Assembly: GCA_964035015.1 (NCBI GenBank) | Contig: CAXIUP010000112.1 | Location: forward strand, 1-64,000 | Length of the DNA stretch: 64,000 bases | DNA from: Corallium rubrum | Taxonomy: Eukaryota > Cnidaria > Anthozoa > Scleralcyonacea > Coralliidae | Reading direction: 5' to 3' | Shown here: positions 15,428-31,250 of the stretch, one piece after another | Layout: each line of letters begins with the position of its first letter | Numbering within the stretch: position 1 is the stretch's first letter | Notes under the pieces: model-generated | The model's input: only the letters and a program-made list of their open reading frames with translations | The model's database searches: none | Told to the model about the DNA's origin: nothing | Made by a program: the position numbers and the translations under genes

Positions 15428-17067
15428 TACACTGTAAAAACTGACTGATTAAAGTAACCTTTTTTTTTGGTTGCGACCAATATGGAATGGTCTTATAAAA
15501 AAACAAAGCTTTCAAAAAACACGCCGTTCACAATAACACACGGACTTTCTTAAGAATAACACACCATTTGACTGACACATCTTATAAAAAACACACCTTT
15601 CAAAAAACACACCTTTCATAATAACACATTTTGAGTTACACATCTTTATGAGGAATACAACTTTCGAAAAACATAGCACATCGTTTGAAATAATACACTG
15701 TTCAAATAGAGTACTTTCGGTAGTAATAACAAACGCTTTGGTAGTAATAATAAAACACATCTTTTAAATATAATACAACATTACAACATTTGTTTAGCCT
15801 AAATATCCCTACGTTTAAAACTTTATATCTATACCTAAATGTGCATGAAGTAATTCCGAATCAATGCGTGTGTAATTTCGAAACAGAATAGCATATCAGA
15901 ATTCAGAAAGAAAGGCTACAGGTAATAAAAATTTTTGCTAAATAGCGCCGTCACCAGTGCAGAGGCCCCCTCTAGCCAGTGTCGTACCCAGCCCCCAGGC
16001 GCATGTAGCCACGATACCGCGCATGCTCCGCGCAGCGAGCGCGCATTGATACTTGGGATAGCGTCATCCCATCTCAGTGCGCCACGTTTGAAATTCACTT
16101 GTGATGGACTGATGGTGTTTTGAGATTCAAGCTACATAAACCCTTGGAAATAAGACTTTTTGTTTGCGAAGAGATCAGGAAGACAGTCTTCACCGAAATA
16201 ACATGTTCTTCTACGGAAAGATTTAACTAAAAGCCATGGAAATCGAGTTGAACCAACAAAGTCCTAGAAGCTTCGCTCGCACGAGGCTACCAGCAAGGTA
16301 AAGAGATTCAGTAATCGTTTGTTTTATATTGTCCTACTTATTGTAATGTGAAATTTTCTCTGGCTCTCGTTGTCAATTTCCTGTTTGATTGTCCATTACA
16401 AACCATTTTATACTGATCGAAGTTAGTGTAGTTGAAGTCAATGTTTATTATTAAAGTCATCATCTTTTGTCGTCAACAATGTTGGCTTAATCTCTTCTTG
16501 TCTTCACAATTTTACAGTAATAGTCAATTGTGGTTCCTAACAAACTCTCAAATCATTCTAAGGATTATCTTATGTAAAACTAAAGCATTCAGATTTTGAG
16601 GTAAAAGTTATTTGTGATTATATGAAATATTAAATTGTTGGTATTAAACAGACTAACAGTAAAGTATGTTTTGTGTGCGTTTGTTTGTCTGCTTATTCAT
16701 TCATATATTATTTTCTCTTGTTTTCTAGTCCATAGGGTAGAGTTACCATGTTCAGTTGTGTTCAACCATTCAACTTGCTGTCTATATTGGTAAGTAAAAT
16801 CCTTAAATAATACTGGTAGTTTATTTATTGATCAATGACATAATGATTTATTCCAATAGGCATGTTTATATTTCAAAATACTATTAGCAGATTATATATT
16901 GGTCTAACTGTATGTCTTTTTTAAAGTGACACTGATGCTGTATACTGAGATTTTTAATACACACACACACATATATATATATATACACACAGACGGACGG
17001 ATGGATGGACGGATGGATGGACGGACGGACGGACAGATGGATGGATGGATGGATGGATGGACGGATG

Positions 17068-17105
<38 letters not shown>

Positions 17106-17124
17106 GATATATACTATATTTATA

Positions 17125-17165
<41 letters not shown>

Positions 17166-17186
17166 GTATATATTTATGTATATATT

Positions 17187-17229
<43 letters not shown>

Positions 17230-17266
17230 ATATGTATATATTTATGTATATATTTATGTATATATT

Positions 17267-17323
<57 letters not shown>

Positions 17324-19033
17324 GTAAAGAACACATATCACACATCTGGATATTTAATATTTTAGAAAGTTGACCGGTTTGATAAAATATAAGTCTCAAA
17401 CTGGTATAATGTCATACTAATAATATTGGTATAATTTTAGTGACATACAGATACTGTATATTCCTTATACATTACTGAACATCCCTATATTCTAATTGTG
17501 TTCAAAAATACAAGAATTCTGCTAGGAAAGTAGAATTTTCTGTCCAAATTGTTTGTTCGGTAACTGCAATCTTGTAGTTAGGAGGAATGTATGAGCATGT
17601 GACCTTTGGAGGGAATCTTACTCTTGATCCTGGGAAGCTAGTCAGCTAGTAGGTCATTATCACATCTGAGAGCCCATCTGTGATACAATGTATGATGGAA
17701 GATAGTCCCTAAATTATACTTCGTAATTATAAAGTTTAATATTGACATTAATTCACACTCCAGCAGATGATTTTACTCTCTAAGGGGTGGTAACAATGGT
17801 ATTGGGTCAAGTGATTATTACTTATTCCTGCCTGAACCAGCCAAAAATGTCTCTTTTATTGTGTTACTAAGTTTATCAGCAGCTGATGATTCCTATTGTA
17901 GGCATCAATGGGTTAAATGGAGTGAATATTTAAACAAACAAAAATTACAACTGAACAAAATCAAAATTTTAGCTTATAAATTGAAATTTTGAGTTTAAAT
18001 ATTTGAGTTAATTAAATATTATTTAACAAATTCTTGAACTAATTTAAATTCTCATTTTACAGGACCAGACCAGTACACATTGAGTGATGCAAAAGCCAAC
18101 TTCTCAACGAAAGAAAAGGGTAGTTGATCTTCAAGATGATTCAGCTGATGTTCCCTTGTCATTGTGTCATTGCTGATTGGATTGTTGTTAAGTACACTTT
18201 GAAAATAACCAACATTCTATAAAATATCTCATGTAGTATCCTAAATGCTGAATGACGTATTTCGGATATAGATGCAGAACCACATACATGTAACATTGTG
18301 GTTAGTCTAGGATTTTTAGCTATCAGTTAATATTTGGGAATTTGAACTGCCAAAAATGGTTTGCATATGACCATTTTCCTGTATACCATGTATATAATTA
18401 GTAGTTATTATTATAGTACGTGACTGTATACATATACTTTAATGTCATCCTGATGTAAACACTCACAGTTCATGTGTTAAAGTATATTAATTATGTTGAC
18501 AATGTTAAACAGGGCATGTTGCATAGCACGCCTTTGTATTAACACACCTACAGTATACAGTAACACATCTTAACATGTGTTAATATAACATACCAAGGTG
18601 TGTTAAATAACCAACTCTTAAGGTGTGTTAGAAAACCTAACTTAAGGTGTGTTAAAATTTGGACAAAAAAGGTGTGTTAATTATTTAACACACCTTTTCT
18701 TAGAGTGAGTTATTCTAATTTATGGGTCCAACAAGATGGTGCGATCTCTGAGTTAGCATTTTTTTGGATAAAAGAAAGTTTCACTTGTACCAATTAGCTT
18801 TGACTTCTGTCACAACCTTAATTAATTAATTATTTATTTAAATGTATGTGAATTGTAGGCAACATTTCTTGCAAGTAAGCAGTGAGTAAAACATGCAAAA
18901 CTGATACTTTTTCATGTTGCTGGTATTTGTTATAGTTACTATTTCAACCAATTAAAAGTTGGTTGAATCTACCATTTGAATTTCTCTTGACCAATGCATT
19001 TGGTTGTTTCAACCAGTCAGTTTTTACAGTGTA
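15428..19033. mobile_element. 3.6 kb TIR element with AACACACC-word clusters
   Basis: TACACTGTAAAAACTGACT at 15428 is exactly mirrored at 19015-19033, and TA lies at both outer edges. Just inside each end is a cluster of AACACACCTT / AAGGTGTGTT words (15513-15760 and 18470-18716). The interior has a GC-rich stretch (15945-16090), a GGAC/GGAT plus AT/TTTATG microsatellite (16960-17330), and no gene that I can support. A possible last exon-like stretch is the 18060-18140 region after a TTTACAG. Confidence 0.6.
16960..17330. repeat. Compound microsatellite (CA)n(GGAC/GGAT)n(AT)n(TTTATG)n
   Basis: Successive blocks of ACAC, GGATGGAC and long AT with TTTATGTATATA variants. Open frames here are artefacts. 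Confidence 0.9.
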
Positions 19034-19861: not shown

Positions 19862-20096
19862 AACTATAATTTTCTTAAGTATAGTTTTCTTTAAAACTAT
19901 AGTTTGTTAAACGAAAGTTTGTTTTGAAAACTATAGTTTTGTTCCAAAATACTTTCATGGTTTTAAAACTATAGTTAAAAAAAACTATAGTTTAAAGCAT
20001 TAACTATAGTTTATGAAACTATAGTTTTGGTTTAAAAACTATAGTTTATGAAACTATAGTTTTGGTTTAAAAACTATAGTTTTTACAACTATACAC
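19862..20096. repeat. Cluster of the palindromic word AAACTATAGTTT (right)
   Basis: About ten copies of AAACTATAGTTT or close variants, matching the left cluster at 14789-15127. The next element begins at its right edge with TACACTGTAAATC. Confidence 0.8.
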
Positions 20097-20995
20097 TGTA
20101 AATCTGGGAGTGTTGCCACAACACCAAAATCGGTGTAAATTCTTGCAGCTGTGGGGACACCAAAAAGGTGTAAACTAACACCAAAACTGGTGTAAGGTTA
20201 CACTGCCGAAAGAGTAAATTGACTGTAAGTTGGTGTAAAACTACACCAAAAACTGGTGTAATCTAACCTTTCAACCGTGTAAAATTACACTGGAAGTGTG
20301 TCTTTACACTGTATTGGGGTAAAATAGCTTGCAGCTGTGTGGACACCATCTTGGTGTAAATTTACACTTGGAGAGTAATCTTACACCAAAACATGTTCTT
20401 TTACACCAATACAGTGTAAATTAGCTTGCAGCTATGTGGACACCATCTTGGTGTAAATTTACACTTGGAGAGTAAACTTGCACCAAAACATGTTGTTTTA
20501 CACCAATACAGTGTAAATTAGCTTGCAGCCGTGTGGACACCATCTTGGTGTAAATTTACACTTTGAGAGTAAACTTACACCAAAACATGTTCTTTTACAC
20601 CAATACAGTGTAAATTAGCTTGCAGCTGTGTGGACACCATCTTGGTGTAAATTTACACTTGGAGAGTAAACTTACACCAAAACATGTTCTTTTACACCAA
20701 TACAGTGTAAATTAGCTTGCAGCTGTGTGGACACCACCTTGGTGTAAATTTATACTTGGAGAGTAAACTTACACCAAAACATGTTCTTTTACACCAATAC
20801 AGTGTAAATTAGCTTGTAGCTGTGTGGACACCATCTTGGTGTAAATTTACACTTGGGGAGTAAACTTGCACCAAAACATGTTCTTTTACACTGATACAGT
20901 GTGAATTAGCTTGCAGCTCTGTGGACACCATCTTGGTGTAAATTTACACTTCGAGAGTAAACTTACACCAAAACCACTTCTTGTTGAACTGACAG
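20097..20995. repeat. 97-bp tandem repeat rich in TTACACC/GGTGTAA words
   Basis: The anchor TAGCTTGCAGCTGTG recurs at 20331, 20428, 20525, 20622, 20719, 20816 and 20913, exactly 97 bp apart each time. The first 190 bases are non-tandem but contain the same TTACACC and GGTGTAA words. It ends about 70 bases before the polyadenylation signal of the SAM-domain gene. Confidence 0.9.
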
Positions 20996-21086
20996 GAGTA
21001 AAAAGTATAGTACCTACAATGGAGAATAAACATTAAAAAGTATAGTAGAATAAACATTAAAAAGTATAGTAGTATAAAAAACTGGT

Positions 21087-21092
21087 TTTATT
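21087..21092 (-). other. Polyadenylation signal of the SAM-domain gene
   Basis: AATAAA on the minus strand, 38 bases after the stop codon. Confidence 0.5.
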
Positions 21093-21129
21093 ACTAGTTG
21101 AAAATTAACAATATATTACAATAAAAAAC

Positions 21130-23464
21130 TCATTGAAAAAGTTCATTCATAAAAATTAAAACCTTAGTGGGGACTTTCAAACGATCAAACACTTTTAAAA
21201 CACAACGTTGTAAAAAGAAAAAGGTATTAAAACATTCTTTGGGATATTCTAAATTGCAAACATAGTACAAAAACATTAATGATGATACGGCTGATATAAT
21301 AGTATCAGCTTCTAACAGAACTTCCTTCTCTCCCGCAATATAAACTGTTTTGACAGGGCCAGCAGTTTCTTCACTCAGAATAAGGAAAGGTGAAATGGGA
21401 CAACTGTCTTCATTTACAATATCTTGAGGATTTTCTGCAACCTTTAAAAAAGGAAAATGAAATAAATATTGATTTAACATTTGAAAGCAGTTTTACTTTT
21501 GTAAAATGTCATTTATAGAATAGCATACAATAATGAATAATTTACCTTGTAAAAATAGTCCTCTGGATGAGGGTTCTTCTTGGTTACTTTTTCCAAAAGG
21601 AATGGTAAAAGCGATAATGCGACGATAACTTTCTCCTCTATATTAAAAAGAAATAAAACATATCTGTGTAAGTACAAGTGAAGAATAGGCGGGTTTCAGG
21701 GTGTTGCGCGCGCATCATTTTTCAAAAAACTGGCAAGCTCCACTCAAAGTAAACATACTGTTTAAAATAAACAAAGTGTAGATACAGTTTCTGGATATAA
21801 AACATTGTTATTCTGCTGTTGTTGGCTCGCTAGCAAGTCTGTTTGCCATTCCTTACTTTGTGGGGAGCCCACCAATTTCTTTCCAAAACGATGCGCACGC
21901 AACACCCTGAAACTCGTCTATTCTTAGTTGGCCAACCCATTACTCAGGCTGAATACAATCATCTGGCAATATTAAATGTATTATGAAGTGAACTCTTACC
22001 ATCAGTCAATTTATTTTCTCCATCCTCATCACATTCTTTGCATTCGGCCACAAGCCTTTCCTGTTCAGGTGGCAATTTCTTTGACTCTGCAACCTTTATT
22101 ATCCGCGGTGCCAAATTAAGCAAATTAGCTTTTATCAACTCAGCCACACTTTCATCTGACAATAGCCGCACATACTCTGCTTCTAACTAAAAGTATGACA
22201 AAACAGTTAAAGATCAGATTACATGTATGTCCATCACTTTCCAAACAGTGGTTTAGTTTATTCATTATCTGAACACTTCAGGTTTCTGTAGCAAGTATTC
22301 CCTGATAGCAGAGTCTTTATAAAACGAGTCTCTGCCCTGATATGTACATCCTGGTTACTGGCCTCATATGAACATGCCCTCAATTATTTAACCCTTTATG
22401 ACCCAGGTCTCCAATTGACAAATAAAATCATCTAGCGTTAGCCAGAGTAAAATACTAAAGGCACTCTTGGGCATTAAAGGGTTAATCAAGATAGTTTCTT
22501 AACCCTTTATTACCCAGGAGGGTTAAACTTCTCTAAAATTTGAAAGATGACTTGCACACAATTATAATAAACAACTTGCCTGTCCTTCCTCAAATAGAAA
22601 AGGGTATTTGCCATTGATTTCTTTCAAAGTGTGCTTGCCACTGTTCACCATTTTACGTCGGAAGGAAAATGTGAGCTGCATTTTCTTATTGACAAGTGAC
22701 ATATTCGGCTGTTTTTTCTTTATTTCTCTTTGCATCCAAGAAATGTGGGCTATACACGATTGGTCGTCTTCTCCATCAATGGCTGGTGGCTCCCAATTTA
22801 TTACTCCTCTTTGATTTGAAAATGGAATCTTAGCAGGCTGCCCAGATTCACCAAGATGTTTTCTTTTCCTTGCCACCACAACAGGATCTCTTGTTTCATT
22901 CCGCAGTTCATTTTTAACCTTATCACCAATCTGGCGATACCAAGTTTCCTAGGAAAAGAAATGCCGAGTATTAGAAATAGTTGTTGGTAAAGGTTATGTA
23001 CAGGTCAGTATAGGTCTAGTTACTGTATGTACTGTATAGGTCAGTGGTTCAAACACCATATTCAAAACTACGCATATGATTGGCTATTGAAATAGCCAAT
23101 CATAGCAAATCAAATACTTAATTCACAAAACCATTTGTGAACTTCTGCAAGCAACATGAGAATGTTGCAACATACTGATATATACAGTATATATATATAT
23201 ACAGTATATATATATATATAGTATAGTATATATATATATATATATACAGTATATATATATATATACAGTATATATATATATATACAGTATATATATATAT
23301 ATATACAGTATATATATATATATATACAGTATATATATATATACAGTATATATATATATACAGTATATATATATATACAGTATATATATATATACAGTAT
23401 ATATATATATATATACAGTATATATATATATACAGTATATATATATACAGTATATATATATATA

Positions 23465-23496
<32 letters not shown>

Positions 23497-26400
23497 TTCC
23501 CCAATATTCAAACATATTTTCAAATCCGAAATTCCAAAGCAAGCTGGAACCGAGTGTAAATGCACAACAAAGGATCAGATAGAACTTACATAACCTCCTC
23601 CAACATCTGCCAAGAAAGGGAATTTTGTAATGATTGCTCTACAAACGTCACGGCGTTGATCTGGAGTAGGGGAACTGAAAATAAATAATATTAGCAACAA
23701 TGAGACTTTACAATTTGACATTAATTTCTCTAAACATAACTAATGTCCACAATTTGCATTCGTCAAGCTCAAGTACACAGAAGATGTTTCTGAATCCCAT
23801 ACTGGGAATGAACATGCAACCTGCTAGTTACTGGTTAGGCTTGGCTGCTCTGCCAATAATGAGCCACTGAGGCTCATAGCTAAGGTTTCAAATTCATATT
23901 GTATTGCATTACCTAAGTGGAGATGCTAGTCACTTCATATTATCATGATAGTGTACAAATGAGCATTCTTTAAATCTACTTTATTACAAATTGTGCTAGT
24001 GACAGTGTAACAAACATTTAAAAATACATACATAGTGAACAGACAGATTCTGTCATAAATAGTCTGTGTAAACTTGACTCGGGCAGGTTTAGGTAGGAAT
24101 GATTTCTTCACTAATGCTTCTTGTACCAATGGTGGGAACCGTTCCGGAAGAGTGAATGGAGTTAACCAAGTTTTTCTTGAAGAGCTTGTGCCTCCAGTGC
24201 TATTTCCATAACAAAAATTAAATTGTTTGACAAGTTAATGTTATATGATCAATACAAGCAATAGACCTATTTTAAAATGGCCACCATTTAATTATTCTTT
24301 TATATGCATTTAATTTAGGCTTACTAGCCTCATTTATGCATCTGCAATTCAAAATAATTCTTGCTTCTTAATGAGGCTAGTAAGGCTGTAATTTAGATGA
24401 ATATAAAAAATAATTAAATGGCTACCATTTTTAGAATAGGTCTATGGCCAATGGTAATTCAAAAGTAATTGTCCAATCAGAAATGTCAAGGATTTAGGAT
24501 TCCGGTTGTTTTAAAGAATCCCTGGTGTTTTAAAGGCATCACTGAGCTCCATATGCTACAAAATCTTAAGTGGACACCTATGAAAGGTCCTTAAGCGGAC
24601 ACCCCTATTAAGCGGACACTCCTATTAAGTGGAAGCAGACACCTGTCTTGGGTCCCAATGAACAGAATAACCTCTATTAAGTGGACACACGGAGTTCAAG
24701 GTTAATGTTTTCCTTTGACAGCAACAAATGTTCAACACTTAGTGTTGTATTAATTGTTTTACAGTAAGACCAAATGAAGTCTATAATAAAACCTGGTAAC
24801 CCCATGTGCACCCCCTACTGTGCCAACCCCTATTAAGCGGACACCCCTATTAAGTGGACACCTGACGAGGTCCCAAAGGTGTCCGCTTAATAGGGTTTGA
24901 CTGTAACATGAATGGCAATGATCATGTTGGAAACAGAGCATCTTAAGACCAATGAGCTCTCTCTCCCTCCCTCCCTCCCTCCCTCTCTCCCTCTCTCTCT
25001 CTCTCTCATTAAAGTTCAAAGACTCAACAGGTTTGATTAGACATTTTTATTACTATTTAGTTTCGTGCCACACGTATTGTGTGGTACTCTTCGGATAAAA
25101 TGGTCTACTGGTCATTAGACCATTTTATCTGAAGACTACCACACAATACGTGTGGCACGAAACTAAATAGTAATAAAAATGTCTAATCAAACCTGTTGAG
25201 TCTTTGAACTTTAACTATAATATGCTCTGGATTCCCATCGAGCACTCTGCCAAAGGTTTTTACAACATCTTCTACAGTATATATATATATATATACATAC
25301 ATGTATATATATATATATATATAGTTCAATCTACGGACACGTGTTTCACTGTACTACACTCATCAGTGTAGCTTGGAACAATCTAGATGTGTTTCACCAA
25401 TATATATATATATATATATATCTGGAGTGATATCTGCTGGTCATTCACTGGGCAAAGATTGAAGCCAAACATGGTAGCCATGTAGACCTAAAGTACGTAT
25501 ACAGTAGTTCCAGTCTCATATGCGGTCTTTTGACTGGATCAGACTTGACCAGACCACTTAGCGGACTGGAACTATATGTACTTCAGGCCCAAAAGGATCG
25601 CGGGCTCTGGGAACAAGATTGCCACAAAGATATCACTCCATGCAGTTATATATAGAGCTCACTGGTTAAGAGTTGCATACTGCCATCTTGGACTCTACAA
25701 GCATGGCAGCATGCCACTTTTTGGGCTGGCTGAAAATATGCTTTAGTATAAAACTGTTAAAAATTATTCTAAAAATGTTATCACAAGTTTTACAAAGCAA
25801 GTTTGCTCTGTAGATGAAGTTAATAAAAGCTTCTCGCTTCTCAGCGCAAATTAGGCGCTGCTAGACCTTCGCCTAAAATGCTAGTAGAAAACGTATATTT
25901 ACGGCTGCCAGTTCTCAAAATGCTTTTTGTCTTCTTCGAACTTTTGTTGCAATGTAGCTCACAAAATAAAGGTTTTAACTTATGAAGCTCAACAAATCGT
26001 AATAAAGGCTAAAGTTAATGAGAAATTTTTCAGTTGTTCATACCTTGAAGCCGGCGAAGAGCGAGGTGACTCGTTATTCATCGTGGGGTCTGACAACTCA
26101 ACATCCGAAGACAAATGAGACATGCTGCTAGACATTTGGCTTCCATTATCGGATTCTGTTTCGACGCAGTTATATTTCATTAATTTTATTATTCGAAGGA
26201 ATTTCATCCTTGGACCAACTTTGTCCACCAGAGATTCCAGCGCTCTTTCTGTCAAGAAGGCTAGTGCTTCTCCATCTATACCTTGATCTAACATAAAGAA
26301 AAACAAAACTGAAGATAAATATCGAGATACTACACTCGTAAAAAGGTTAATAACACTATTTATTTCACGTTAACATCGAAAATAAAGCATGGGACAATTC

Positions 26401-26575
26401 CCTTGAACGATTAAAGAAACACATTCTCGACAAAGAATCGAGAAAAATATATCACTTCAGACTCAGTTTAGCAATACGTACCATGAAATGTTTCACAGAA
26501 ATCTTCAAAGCCATTGGATTTCAGCCACTGGGAAACTTCATCAGCTGTAAACTGAGTGTAAGGAACACTTTCCAT
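21130..26575 (-). CDS. SAM-domain protein (SAMD3-like family), complete, eight exons
   Basis: Exons on the minus strand: 26575-26482, 26287-26044, 24199-24032, 23674-23590, 22948-22580, 22186-22000, 21637-21546, 21441-21130. All phases agree and give 516 residues. Residues about 8-70 form a SAM domain (FTADEVSQWLKSNGFEDFCE, then GIDGEALAFLTERALESLVD and VGPRMKFLRIIKLMK); SAM domains mediate protein-protein or RNA contacts. A Ser-rich acidic linker follows. Then come RFPPLVQEALVKKSFLPKPA, a conserved ITKFPFLAD block, and a basic segment with INWEPP and HISWMQREIKKK. Intron 5 has a GC donor (CAG|GCAAGT). The resemblance is to the many SAMD3-like genes of fish and cnidarians, whose function I do not know. 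Gene B starts 248 bp away in the opposite direction. AATAAA on the minus strand at 21092-21087. Confidence 0.8.
22388..22485. mobile_element. MITE of the CTTTAGTATTTTACTCTGGC family
   Basis: TTAACCCTTTATGACCCA is mirrored by TTGGGCATTAAAGGGTTAA. The core on the minus strand reads CTTTAGTATTTTACTCTGGC then TAACGCTAGATGATTTTA. Lies in intron 5 of the SAM-domain gene. Confidence 0.7.
23170..23496. repeat. (TATACAG)(TA)n microsatellite
   Basis: TATATATATACAG units repeated about 17 times in intron 4 of the SAM-domain gene. Ile/Tyr open frames are artefacts. Confidence 0.9.
23755..23885 (-). mobile_element. tRNA-derived SINE
   Basis: Read on the minus strand it has a box A-like TGGCAGAGCAGCC, a box B-like GGTTGCATGTTCATTCCC and a 3' tail TTGAGCTTGACGAATGC. 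The same tail occurs at 46628 and 46748, so the two loci share a SINE family. Confidence 0.55.
24762..24903. mobile_element. pogo/Tigger-like MITE with TA duplication
   Basis: The right end GGTGTCCGCTTAATAGGG then TTTGACTG has the known pogo-type end when reversed (CAGTCAAACC). The left end begins CAGTAAGACC. TA flanks at 24760-24761 and 24904-24905. Related TTAAGCGGACACC segments run from about 24560 upstream. Confidence 0.6.
25012..25213. mobile_element. Foldback with hammerhead-like motif in both arms
   Basis: Arms of about 90 bp pair almost perfectly. The right arm carries CTGAAGACTACCACAC, a five-base loop, GTGTGGCACGAAAC; the left arm carries the mirrored version with one core change. 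It lies in intron 2 of the SAM-domain gene. Confidence 0.7.
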
Positions 26576-26822
26576 AGTAAAAGAAGAGTTGAAAGACTTT
26601 CAAAATAGAGCTAAACAGGCTAAAACAGCGTCTAAATTTTGAACTCCCGCGTGTGTTGTTAATAACAATTTAACAAATGAAGGGAGTCCAGGGAGTCTCG
26701 CATGGAGTCTCGTCTATTGCCACGTGACCATGAGCCCGCGGTAAATCTGAATATTACTCCCACTTCATCATAATAGATCCCCTCCGACCCCTCATTGCCC
26801 ACATTTCCCCTGAACTGCTGGC
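26576..26822. promoter_or_regulatory. Shared promoter region of the divergent SAM / gene B pair
   Basis: 247 bp separate the two opposed start codons. It holds a CACGTG E-box (26721-26726), GGGAGTC repeats and CpG-containing stretches (CCCGCGTG, GCCCGCGG). No TATA box. Bidirectional use is inferred from the spacing. Confidence 0.55.
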
Positions 26823-29800
26823 ATGGCAGGGGTGCTGGAAGAACGTAGGGCATATTTTATCTGCGAAAAACCTGAATGTTTCCATCTTTCCTTTGGAACA
26901 TTTCAACGTTATTTGAACCACTTGCGACATAACCATAGTCATGAGCCCAACTTTAAAGTCAGGTGCCCAGTGGAATCATGTTTCCGCTCATATTCGGTGA
27001 TTTCATCTTTAACGTCACATATCGCTCGTAAACACCGAAATTTGAATCAATTGAACTTCGGCGTTGCCGTCGACGATCTTCTACCTGTAAATGACGACCA
27101 GCCGCCCAATGAAACTGATGCTGAACCACAAGGTGTATTTTCTCCGAGATATTTGGCTTTGTTTGCCTTGAAGACACAGGAACTGAATAAACTTACTGAC
27201 AGTGCAACAAACAAGGTAATCGAGAATACATCTGAGCTACTCGAGCAACATGAAGTGCATGTGAAAGAAAAATTTAAGCAGTGCCTAGAAAAAGCTGGGA
27301 TTAATGTAAAAAACATTGAGGGATTGGAGGACTTGATAAAGATGCCACAAACTCCCAGCATGAACCATATAAAAACAGCTAAAGAAAGAAACCAATACCT
27401 TTCACAAGAATTCAAAATTGTGGTAAGTAGTGCAGTATTTTTACTTGATTATTAACTTTATTAATGTATGATTCAATTCCATCTATTATCATGCCCCTAG
27501 GCATTTGACTTTTCCAACATTATTCTTTATTTCATCCATATCAAAAGACGATGCGGAAAACACAATGCAGATCGCAGATGCTCCAGCTGTGTCAAATGCC
27601 TGGGGGTTGCCCAGAAGGAATGATTGCACTTAGTGGGGGTGCACCAGATTATCTGGTATCCGGCCAGATAACAAAAACCACTATCCGATGCATCCCTACA
27701 AAATGCTGTTTTGTTGTTGAAAACCACAAGTTTATTTATCAAATAAATCCCTTGAAAGAACAAAGAATTAAGGAAGGTTTTTGTCAGTTTCAGTTAGTGA
27801 ACCAGTCTTCAAAATAAATTAATTTGACAAACCATAACTGAAAATAACATACTGGAGTCTGTAGGGTAAAGTAATGTAAAAAAGGCTCTACAACATATTT
27901 TAATATTGATAAAGTAAAACTTGAAGATTTTATTGCTCGTTTTGGCGGTTTCATGTTGGTCATTTCAATTGTTTCGGGTTGTTCTGGCAGTTTCATTTCT
28001 GGTTTAAGTACATGCCAAAGATATGTTGTATACTGCATTACATGTAACACTTTCAAAATTTATTTCCTTGTACAGGAGCCAGTTGAAATAGTCCTTGGAG
28101 AAGAAATAATAAATACTGAAAGTGGAATAAATGGCACCATCAAAGTGAAAAAACACTCATTCCAATATGTTTCTCTCATAAAAGTTTTGGAGCGACTGTT
28201 GAATCAAGTTGATATATTTTCTCAGGAAATGCAGTTTACTGTCCCTGTCATCTGAGGAACTGCACATTGGAGACAAAACATAAATTATGTTTATACACAA
28301 TTGCAATGTTTTTGTAATGTCTTTTAGAGGGGTTAGGTGAACAGAATATGTGTCTAATCTTAGTTCTTTTACTATCTTAGGTTGAGAATACCCACATAAG
28401 TAAAGATGGAAAAATGAGAGACTTCTGTGATGGTGAACAATTCAGTGATGGGCAACATCCACTCTTTTCAGTTTGTACAAAAGCAATACAAATCATTTTG
28501 TACTACGATGATTTTGAAGTTGCAAACCCACTAGGAGCAAAAGCTGTAGTACATAAAGTTGGTTAGTATTTGCAAATGCAATTATTAAATATATATGGCA
28601 TTTTGAGATCATGTTCATGATTTGTTGACCGATGGTGCCCTTGTTGGTTCCACAACTCTCACAAACCTTGTATTAGGGCTAATGTCAGGCCATTTTATTT
28701 TTGTTAATGCCACGCCATTTTATTCTTTCTAATACTAGAAGTGTAGTCTTAACCGAATTTTGTTCAGACAAGGTGTTGATTGGCATGTTATTCTGGCTAA
28801 CAACAGACAATATTTTGCTTTATTTGTTCTAGGTGCTTTTTATTGGATGTTGGCAAATCTCCATCCAAAATTCCGGTCTTCACTGAAAAGTTTAAACCTT
28901 GTTATACTGTGTCCAGTCAAGTGGATAAAGATGAATGGTATGGATAAAATTCTCAGACCACTTATGGCTGATGTTGCTTTGCTTGAATCGGTGAGTGATG
29001 TATATGTACACTACTATTTAAATGTCTTAGGCACCTCTGGAATTTTCAAATGAATAAGCAGCAAATTAAAAAATGCCATTTGAGACTAGAAGAAACGTGA
29101 AACAGTTAGCATATTATATATGTAGTTCTTATGGAATTTTTTTAGGATTTATGTTGTTCATATTATTATACAGTGTAAGAGCATCAGTGAAATGTTAACT
29201 AAAGTGCTAGAATACATGTCTATTGGTGTCTTAATCTAGGAACGTGGTGTACAACTTCACATAGCCAACCAAACCATGTCTTTTCAAGGCAGCTTGGGTG
29301 CTGTTTTAGCAGATAACCTTGGCAGCAATGCCATTGGGGGTTTCATGGAAAGCTTCTCTGCAAATCGACCATGCAGATTTTGCATGGGAACATGTTTGGA
29401 ATTCCAGGAAAAGGTAATATCTCTTTCAAAATATCATTGTCCATTGCCTTGTTGTTTGAACATTAACCCTTTCACTCCCAAATCTGGAATTTTCCAAACT
29501 TTAGTATTTTACTCTGTCTAATGCCAGACGATTTTACTCATCAATGAGAGAGCTCCCAGAAAGTTGGGAGTGAAAGGGTTAATAGGCCGGTGAAAAAAGC
29601 ATATTGATGGAGTGGGTAATATGCTTTATCACAGACTGCTCAGCAGCCAATCAGCGTGCACCATAGTGATTAGCCATGTAACAATACTGCATAATATAAT
29701 TATTTTAAATCTAGTTTGTTGAGGAAGACTTCAGAATGCGTTCACGAGATATGTACAACAGACATGCAGAATTTGTTGCCACTGATCCAGGATCAGCCTC

Positions 29801-30078
29801 AGTGTATGGTGTCAAGAAGCAGTCTGCCTTAAATTCCTCAAAATATTTTCATGTTGTGGATGGGCTTCCTTCAGATATCATGCATGATATGTTGGAAGGA
29901 GTCCTTCCTCTTCATGTCAAAGTCATGTTGAGAAAATTTATTATGGAGGACAAGTATTTTACTCTAAATGAGTTTAACAAGCAGCTGACAAGCTTTCCAT
30001 TTGGTATGTGTGATTCGCGAAACAGGCCAAGCTTGATTAAGCATGTTAATCAGGGTGATCACCACATGCGTCAATCAG
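26823..30078 (+). CDS. Gene B: C2H2 zinc-finger plus DDE-transposase-like protein, 3' end missing
   Basis: Exons: 26823-27422, 28076-28240, 28381-28561, 28833-28990, 29240-29413, 29715-30078, all in phase (about 547 residues). Two C2H2 fingers open the protein (C14, C19, H33, H38; C48, C53, H66, H71), then a helical linker. The core has D298 in YYDDFE, D393 in LADNLGSN and E487 in HDMLEGV, with CRFCMGTC (C413, C416) between the last two. This is the acidic order and Cys-rich insert of several cut-and-paste transposases, so a DDE nuclease or a domesticated relative is likely. The family is familiar from fish and cnidarian genomes but I know no biochemical data. The last exon ends at a good donor (CAG|GTAATG), yet no further exon is seen; microsatellite and satellite sequence begins at once, so the C-terminus has been lost or lies far away. 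Exon 2's donor (ACT|GTCCCT) is weak. Confidence 0.7.
29463..29582. mobile_element. 120-bp MITE of the CTTTAGTATTTTACTCTG family
   Basis: TTAACCCTTTCACTCCCAA is mirrored by TTGGGAGTGAAAGGGTTAA. The core CTTTAGTATTTTACTCTG then TCTAATGCCAGACGATTT matches the copies at 22388 and 40.3-40.6 kb. Lies in intron 5 of gene B. Confidence 0.75.
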
Positions 30079-30097
30079 GTAATGTATATTTTTATGT

Positions 30098-30101
30098 ACT
30101 G

Positions 30102-30133
<32 letters not shown>

Positions 30134-31250
30134 TTCACGAGCCGCACATTGTGGGGACCTCGGCGAGTTACATACCTACACTGTGGGGACTCGTAACATT
30201 GTGGGGACCTGACTCAAGTCCCCACAATGTTTTCATCTATTTTCGGTTAGCAAATACAGTTTCTACGCTCAAATGAACTTTATTTCATTGAAATAACGTT
30301 ACCACAACGTTTCATTTCATTGATTGTTAAAAAACTAAAGCTACTTAGCTAAAATATCCTGTAGTATGAAGTCCCCACAATTACGGTTTATGAGTTGCGT
30401 GTGTAAATTGTGTAAAAAATGTAGCACGCTTTGTGGGGACCTGTACAAGAACTTTTTCATTGTGGGGACTTCACTTATCCTCTTCTTCTAACTCGGGTTT
30501 TCTATTCTTGTACAGAGTTTACTAAAGCAAAACAAAAGAAAACGCAACAAAATTAGTCTTAAAAATAATTTCGAAATAGCTTTTGTAAAGGACTTCACAG
30601 GTTCTTTATGGAAAGGTTGTGTTCGAAATGTTTAGTTATAAATAAAAAATAATTTTCATCAGACTGACTGACCAATTGACTGACGCGCAACCCACCGACT
30701 AATGGTTGACTGATGACCAGCCAATCGAGTAATGGATCAACCAACTAAGCAATAGAAGCATTAGACTGACTGACCATCTTTTTTATTTTGAAACTATGAA
30801 CATGCTAAATAAAGCTGACTTTAAAGCACACATTCTAAAATAGTGGGACTGGTGTCCCAAAAATATTTACAAAGAAAGATAACTTTACAGAATATATCAG
30901 TACATAGCGCATTATGGGGACCCCAATGAGTTACCCACCAACACTGTGGGGACTTGAGTCCCCACAACTACGATATATGAGTCGAGTGTATGAAATGCAA
31001 CTTTATCTCTTGGCAACTTGTGTAACAAAAGGGAAACGGCAGCCGTGTAGCCGGGTAGCCAGGCAAATGGCAGTCATACATTGTACTGTGGCAGTCGGCC
31101 AGGCGGTCATTCAGTCATCAAGAGAACCAGTGTATTTGTTATACCCAGGGTGGAATAGTACTCATAAAATTTAAATGTGCACTTCATGTGACATGTACAT
31201 TGTTTTAGCAAGATAGATTTCAGTCAGTCAGTCTGCACGTCACGCTTTCA
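30098..31250. repeat. (GTAT)n followed by scattered GTGGGGAC words; no gene
   Basis: A short (GTAT)n is followed by CATTGTGGGGACC / GTCCCCACAATG words at about 30150-30230, 30370-30475 and 30915-30970. The stretch 30660-30790 has degenerate ACTGACTGACC repeats. No exon of gene B or other gene is visible. Confidence 0.6.

Follow-up and report, generated by a model that had tools for sequence, protein, structure and literature searches.

Two genes lying head to head between positions 21130 and 30078 of a 64-kb stretch of Corallium rubrum DNA (the window) are most probably the remains of a truncated two-gene, cut-and-paste DNA transposon of CACTA/EnSpm-like type, belonging to the CMCT clade. The genes are a SAM-domain gene (gene A), which would act as a helper, and a gene with zinc fingers and a CACTA-like transposase region (gene B); judging from the sequence evidence, we give this reading a probability of roughly 0.78. 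The initial annotation had proposed a two-gene DNA transposon at this place, and recurring linkage of the two genes, terminal repeats, target duplications and transposase motifs all agree with that proposal. The feature is larger than first described, as it extends left past the bounds of the gene pair to 20094, taking in a transposon terminus and subterminal repeats. Coordinates are positions in the window unless a contig is named, and the genome searched comprises 474 Mb in 312 contigs. The features are listed below.

20092..20093: TA adjoining the left terminus, presumed half of the target site; homology to the copy on contig C235 begins at 20092, and TA lies on both sides in 11 of 13 end pairs
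20094..20117, plus strand: left terminal inverted repeat CACTGTAAATCTGGGAGTGTTGCC, with 74 genome matches versus 1 for the control
20094..21130: subterminal region with GGTGTAAA/TTTACACC motifs, including a 97-bp tandem array at 20319-20974
21130..26575, minus strand: gene A, SAM-domain second gene; 8 exons, open frame of 516 amino acids (aa), SAM_1 match
26576..26822: spacer of 247 bp separating the start codons of genes A and B, presumed to serve as a shared promoter
26823..30078, plus strand: gene B, with zinc fingers and a CACTA-like transposase part; six exons remain, and the 3' exons with H(3)H and E have been lost
30097..30104: break point, with the match to the B copy on contig C237 ending at 30097 and a (TATG)n tract beginning at 30104
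25009..25214: palindromic repeat sitting in intron 2 of gene A and foreign to the element itself

Gene structure and protein domains

Genes A (minus strand) and B (plus strand) diverge from start codons 247 bp apart, an arrangement already described in the initial annotation and returned by the best-scoring splice solutions of both genes. Gene A (exons 26575-26482, 26287-26044, 24199-24032, 23674-23590, 22948-22580, 22186-22000, 21637-21546 and 21441-21130) is the best-scoring of 88 solutions, the runner-up encoding 523 aa, and has one GC-AG intron, the exon at 22948-22580 carrying a GC donor. Its description as a complete eight-exon gene is borne out by a single open frame of 516 aa running from ATG to stop. 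The N-terminus belongs to the Pfam family SAM_1 (E = 6e-10; 39.8 bits against a curated cut-off of 23), and the SAM part is also present in the A genes at C1:76.6 Mb, C284 and C1:11.6 Mb. When the domain was compared with solved structures, the best sequence matches included SARM1, Polyhomeotic, Sfmbt, L3MBTL3 and SHANK2, several of which self-associate. Vertebrate SAMD3, a protein of about 520 residues, likewise has its SAM domain close to the N-terminus, and it is on domain position and protein length that we presume a likeness, in name, of gene A to SAMD3.

Gene B (exons 26823-27422, 28076-28240, 28381-28561, 28833-28990, 29240-29413 and 29715-30078) is the best-scoring of 128 splice solutions. 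It encodes 547 aa without a terminal stop codon, and homology to C237 ends at 30097, so that the gene does lack its 3' end, as had been noted. The two C2H2 fingers reported earlier are recognizable as C2H2-like in the first exon, although they are weak by Pfam (zf-C2H2_aberr, 2e-4, under its cut-off). The later exons give a weak match to Transposase_21 (E = 0.004); scores were 16.8 bits for the window, 11.5 for a tandem type described below and 26.7 for L079, a B relative with a long open frame, all short of the family cut-off of 28.6.

Six further B loci were picked for long open frames, each a single frame of 645 to 836 aa, and were aligned with the tandem-type B (seven relatives in all) and the window copy. 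At E <= 0.1, Transposase_21 matches three of these eight members (best 3e-6), as do Plavaka (1e-5) and DUF4218 (9e-5). The CMCT clade is marked, in the available part of its description, by D/D/E catalytic residues, by C(2)C and H(3-4)H motifs between the second D and the E, by CA..TG termini and by 2- to 5-bp target duplications (PMC12730594). All seven relatives share the D in LYxD, the D in GD(N/T), C(2)C (as CRxC), H(3)H (as HxxxH) and the E in an FExxHxxFK block. The window copy retains both D residues and, from the motif pair, C(2)C. A D-D-E core had been placed in residues 255-547 of gene B; its D-D part stands, together with C(2)C, and the third catalytic residue, E, is absent here. 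Translated searches of the 64 kb with two of the relatives found neither H(3)H nor the catalytic E block, and a catalytic E inside the window was therefore rejected. Taken together, the sub-threshold CACTA/Plavaka transposase matches and the CMCT motif set support a DNA-transposon class for gene B as predicted from its sequence.

Element ends and target duplications

The left terminus lies at 20094 and begins CACTG. The stretch of DNA homologous to the C235 copy opens precisely with TA followed by CACTG, at 20092, and over the whole left end identity to that copy is 96-98%. The first 21 bases occur 74 times in the genome with up to three mismatches, compared with once for the reversed control. 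Just inside the terminus, 15 GGTGTAAA/TTTACACC motifs fall within 1037 bp, versus 5 in the remaining 62963 bp of the window. In a relative at C1:76.6 Mb the same motifs number 7 at either end, 0 in the intervening 13 kb and 1 outside; by way of this relative, subterminal repeats can be placed beside both ends, as in plant CACTA elements.

Inverted end pairs of the window's family lying within 60 kb numbered 14, and 13 of them (3.9 to 21 kb apart) were read, leaving out a pair on C1 with its ends 50 kb apart. Twelve of the 13 are flanked by 2-bp target duplications (11 TA, 1 TG) and the thirteenth reads TA/AA; the 3-bp duplication of plant CACTA elements was seen in none. Duplications of 2 bp also occur in animal CACTA elements, according to the portion of the account available (PMC1636069). 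The termini, CACTG..CAGTG with one right end reading CAGTT (the window's own right end is lost), and the duplications conform to the 5'-CA..TG-3' ends and 2- to 5-bp duplications of the CMCT clade. Shared terminal repeats and target duplications, both anticipated in the initial annotation, were thus found.

About 1 kb left of the element there is a second CACTG-type inverted end pair (15430-19031, CACTGTAAAAACTGACTG) with TA on both flanks, which looks like a short non-autonomous relative. We considered whether this pair might be the termini of the element itself and rejected the idea, since its terminal sequence is a different one and its position is outside the genes.

Linkage of the two genes across the genome

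Searches of the genome with the A and B proteins returned at least 77 A and at least 144 B matches (83 of 218 and 134 of 314 candidates scored), which fall into 46 A and 101 B clusters, weak C-terminal-only A matches included. A B cluster lies within 20 kb of A in 19 of the 46 A clusters, as against approximately 0.4 expected under uniform placement. Thirteen of the 19 linked clusters are divergent, six have both genes on the same strand and none is convergent, so that the recurring A-B linkage suggested earlier holds within the Corallium rubrum genome. The 19 include the window itself, and C1:76.6 Mb and C284 are close copies. As a control, all 101 B clusters were compared with 66 SAM_1 matches, only one of which lay within 20 kb of a B cluster. 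At four A loci the expected B side was read, and a divergent B was present at three, two of these being close copies.

Two further observations concern A-like sequences. A partial SAM_1 match at C1:94687386-94691476, the one that fell near a B cluster in the control, has a B frame of the same strand 2.4 kb away and is perhaps a further A gene in an A-B pair missed by the A query. A multi-copy A family shows a SAM exon and a C-terminal exon at C1:11.6 Mb (L086 1962-6676), and eight further places share the score of this one.

Relatives holding both genes

Both genes lie between both ends in two relatives, one divergent (C1:76.6 Mb) and one tandem (C1:16.1 Mb). The divergent copy has inverted ends CACTCTTAATTTCTGG with CA on both flanks; the C284 copy is 97% identical to it and has the right end in common, while its flank differs. 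The tandem copy represents a second, deeply diverged type in which A and B follow one another on the same strand. Here the inverted ends are CACTGTTAAAAA, with TA on both flanks, and a second copy, which has about 9.8 kb in common with it at 97-99%, matches the right end only. Tandem-type B adjoins tandem-type A at six of seven loci (C1:16.1 Mb, C1:0.6 Mb, C20, C295, C13 and C40), and at the seventh, C81, no B stands beside A among the matches listed.

Beside a tandem-type element lies an open frame (L044 6379-7209) with a GGTKTGKTT nucleotide-binding motif. By eye, it resembles the packaging ATPase of a virus-like element.

Conservation of gene A

Across element families, synonymous differences in gene A (pS 0.67-0.93, near or beyond saturation) far exceed amino-acid-changing differences (pN 0.22-0.31) in all six comparisons of distant copies. 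A seventh comparison, with the close C235 copy, gave zero differences over 79 codons. The A frame is open in all four young tandem-type copies, and the ratio of amino-acid-changing to silent change (dN/dS) is 0.41-0.73 in the five of their six pairs in which silent differences are present; the sixth pair has 3 nonsynonymous and 0 silent differences. The tandem-type frame is split in the copies on C13, C81 and C40. Copies with stop codons (L013, L022) were excluded from the alignments, and the range of L011 was shortened at a stop, with L025 excluded there. This pattern points to selection on gene A during the lifetime of the element, as a helper would be expected to show.

Damage to the window copy

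The closest B copy found, that on C237, gives 95.5% homology up to 30097. This copy has one more exon and, some 4.7 kb beyond, a sequence close to that of the right end, with 3 mismatches. On the window's own contig no second end was found within 3 mismatches, and a right end further along it was therefore rejected. Having lost the right end and the 3' portion of gene B, the window copy cannot move by itself, and no complete enzyme is encoded by its gene B. Gene A nevertheless keeps its open frame in this broken element.

Where the missing part of gene B would have lain, positions 30104-31000 hold (TATG)n and recurring GTGGGGAC stretches. Within gene A, the repeat at 25009-25214 is a near-perfect palindrome with 102-nt arms at 97% identity; since a query spanning 24900-25500 has 254 genome matches, it is a common small repeat.

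Proposed mechanism and alternative explanations

In the element as we picture it, the zinc fingers and DDE core of gene B would bind the CACTG ends and cut them. Gene A would serve as an adaptor whose SAM domain may self-associate, helping to bring the numerous subterminal GGTGTAAA repeats together in a single complex. Such an action at the subterminal repeats would be analogous to that of TnpA of Spm, which binds subterminal repeats in the available part of its description (PMC2613891). Alternatively, gene A might lift silencing, a function that TnpA has for plant Spm. With the two genes divergent, a single 247-bp region could drive both.

Several results weigh against an element of this kind. 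Among the matches listed, no A or B match is enclosed by any of the 13 end pairs, which consequently look like non-autonomous derivatives, and this genome yielded no complete copy with both genes from the window's own family. In the C237 copy, the sequence as far as the right end did not yield an H/E block; even the nearest copy is thus damaged, and a working transposase of the window's family has not been seen. The Pfam matches of gene B lie under the curated cut-offs where bit scores are shown, a B profile searched against solved structures gave no matches, and the first exon of B is poorly conserved with respect to the C1:76.6 Mb relative (pN 0.59; pN of exon 6 is 0.12). A Pfam search of the tandem-type A frame did not find a SAM match, so that the SAM domain is perhaps not universal among A genes. 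Linkage is also incomplete: among the matches listed, for 27 of the 46 A clusters no B was detected within 20 kb, the 7 kb read at an A locus at C1:55.3 Mb did not reveal a B, and the multi-copy A family at C1:11.6 Mb is without B in the 8.5 kb fetched. From the other side, A was detected within 20 kb of only 20 of the 101 B clusters. The 81 without it lower our confidence and give more weight to the possibility that A is a captured host gene, a passenger in an element whose movement depends on B and the ends only. Fungal DNA transposons do capture extra genes such as TET/JBP, in the part of the literature cited (PMC12730594). We nevertheless consider a passenger role unlikely, for two types, deeply diverged and arranged differently, both pair B with a homologue of A, and amino-acid change in A is far below silent change between families, which favors a helper. 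Gene A is accordingly judged a putative helper rather than cargo.

It is improbable that the host has co-opted the window's gene A and retained its open frame for a role of its own. The frame is open across 8 exons in a broken element, and its last exon shows no difference from the C235 copy over the first 79 codons, compared with 96-98% identity for the whole left end; however, the C235 copy has stop codons after the identical stretch, and since the nearest copies are just a few percent diverged, the open frame may simply reflect youth. Divergent host gene pairs are common in animals, and two unrelated host genes might in principle lie head to head by chance. This explanation has a negligible probability and was rejected in view of the recurring linkage, the homology of the end to C235, the termini and the target duplications.

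If the transposon reading is true, the many SAMD3-like copies in some animal genomes would be explained as transposon genes and not as an expanded host family, and counts of SAMD3-like gene families in animal genomes may partly count mobile DNA. Animal CACTA elements would gain a two-gene layout with a recognizable partner domain, and the need for a helper would become testable with defined parts. More tentatively, and with the balance tilted against it, there may be an animal CACTA-like lineage in which a SAM protein is the required second protein, a counterpart of TnpA, with vertebrate SAMD3 and SAMD3-like genes descending from or being such helpers.

Comparison with known systems

The comparisons that follow draw on the available parts of the published descriptions. 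The element resembles the plant CACTA elements Spm/En and Tgmt*, which have a tnp2 (Transposase_21) transposase, CACTA-type termini and subterminal repeat arrays (PMC2613891). In Spm/En a second element-encoded protein, TnpA, is needed for movement, and it is to this protein that we liken gene A (PMC2613891). Unlike here, where duplications are of 2 bp and two genes are present, Tgmt* makes a 3-bp duplication, and in both plant elements one transcription unit yields both functions; that part of their description does not mention a SAM domain (PMC2613891).

SmTRC1, an animal CACTA element of the TRC group, shares with our element a Transposase_21 match, an animal host and 2-bp duplications, which were reported in 7 of 14 copies (PMC1636069). 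It differs in that the two TRC termini quoted begin CCC and the extra proteins are splice products; a SAM gene on the opposite strand goes unmentioned in the part of the description at hand (PMC1636069). The fungal Plavaka and ESTA elements of the CMCT clade have the C(2)C and H(3-4)H motifs, and their target duplications (2- or 3-bp in Plavaka, TA in ESTA) are comparable to the 2-bp, mostly TA, duplications found here (PMC12730594). The likeness to Plavaka is one of motifs and of Pfam matches, which extend to three of the eight B members. The termini of Plavaka are TGT..ACA or CATCA..TGATG, unlike the CACTG..CAGTG found here, and the extra gene of Plavaka/ESTA is TET/JBP, not SAM (PMC12730594).

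Among the papers listed in literature searches for SAMD3 or SAM together with DNA transposons, we did not come across a second gene with a SAM domain, in most cases divergent from the transposase gene, though a description in Repbase only is possible. Two-protein CACTA elements are already known from plants, and the predicted SAM-domain second gene would be the new part.

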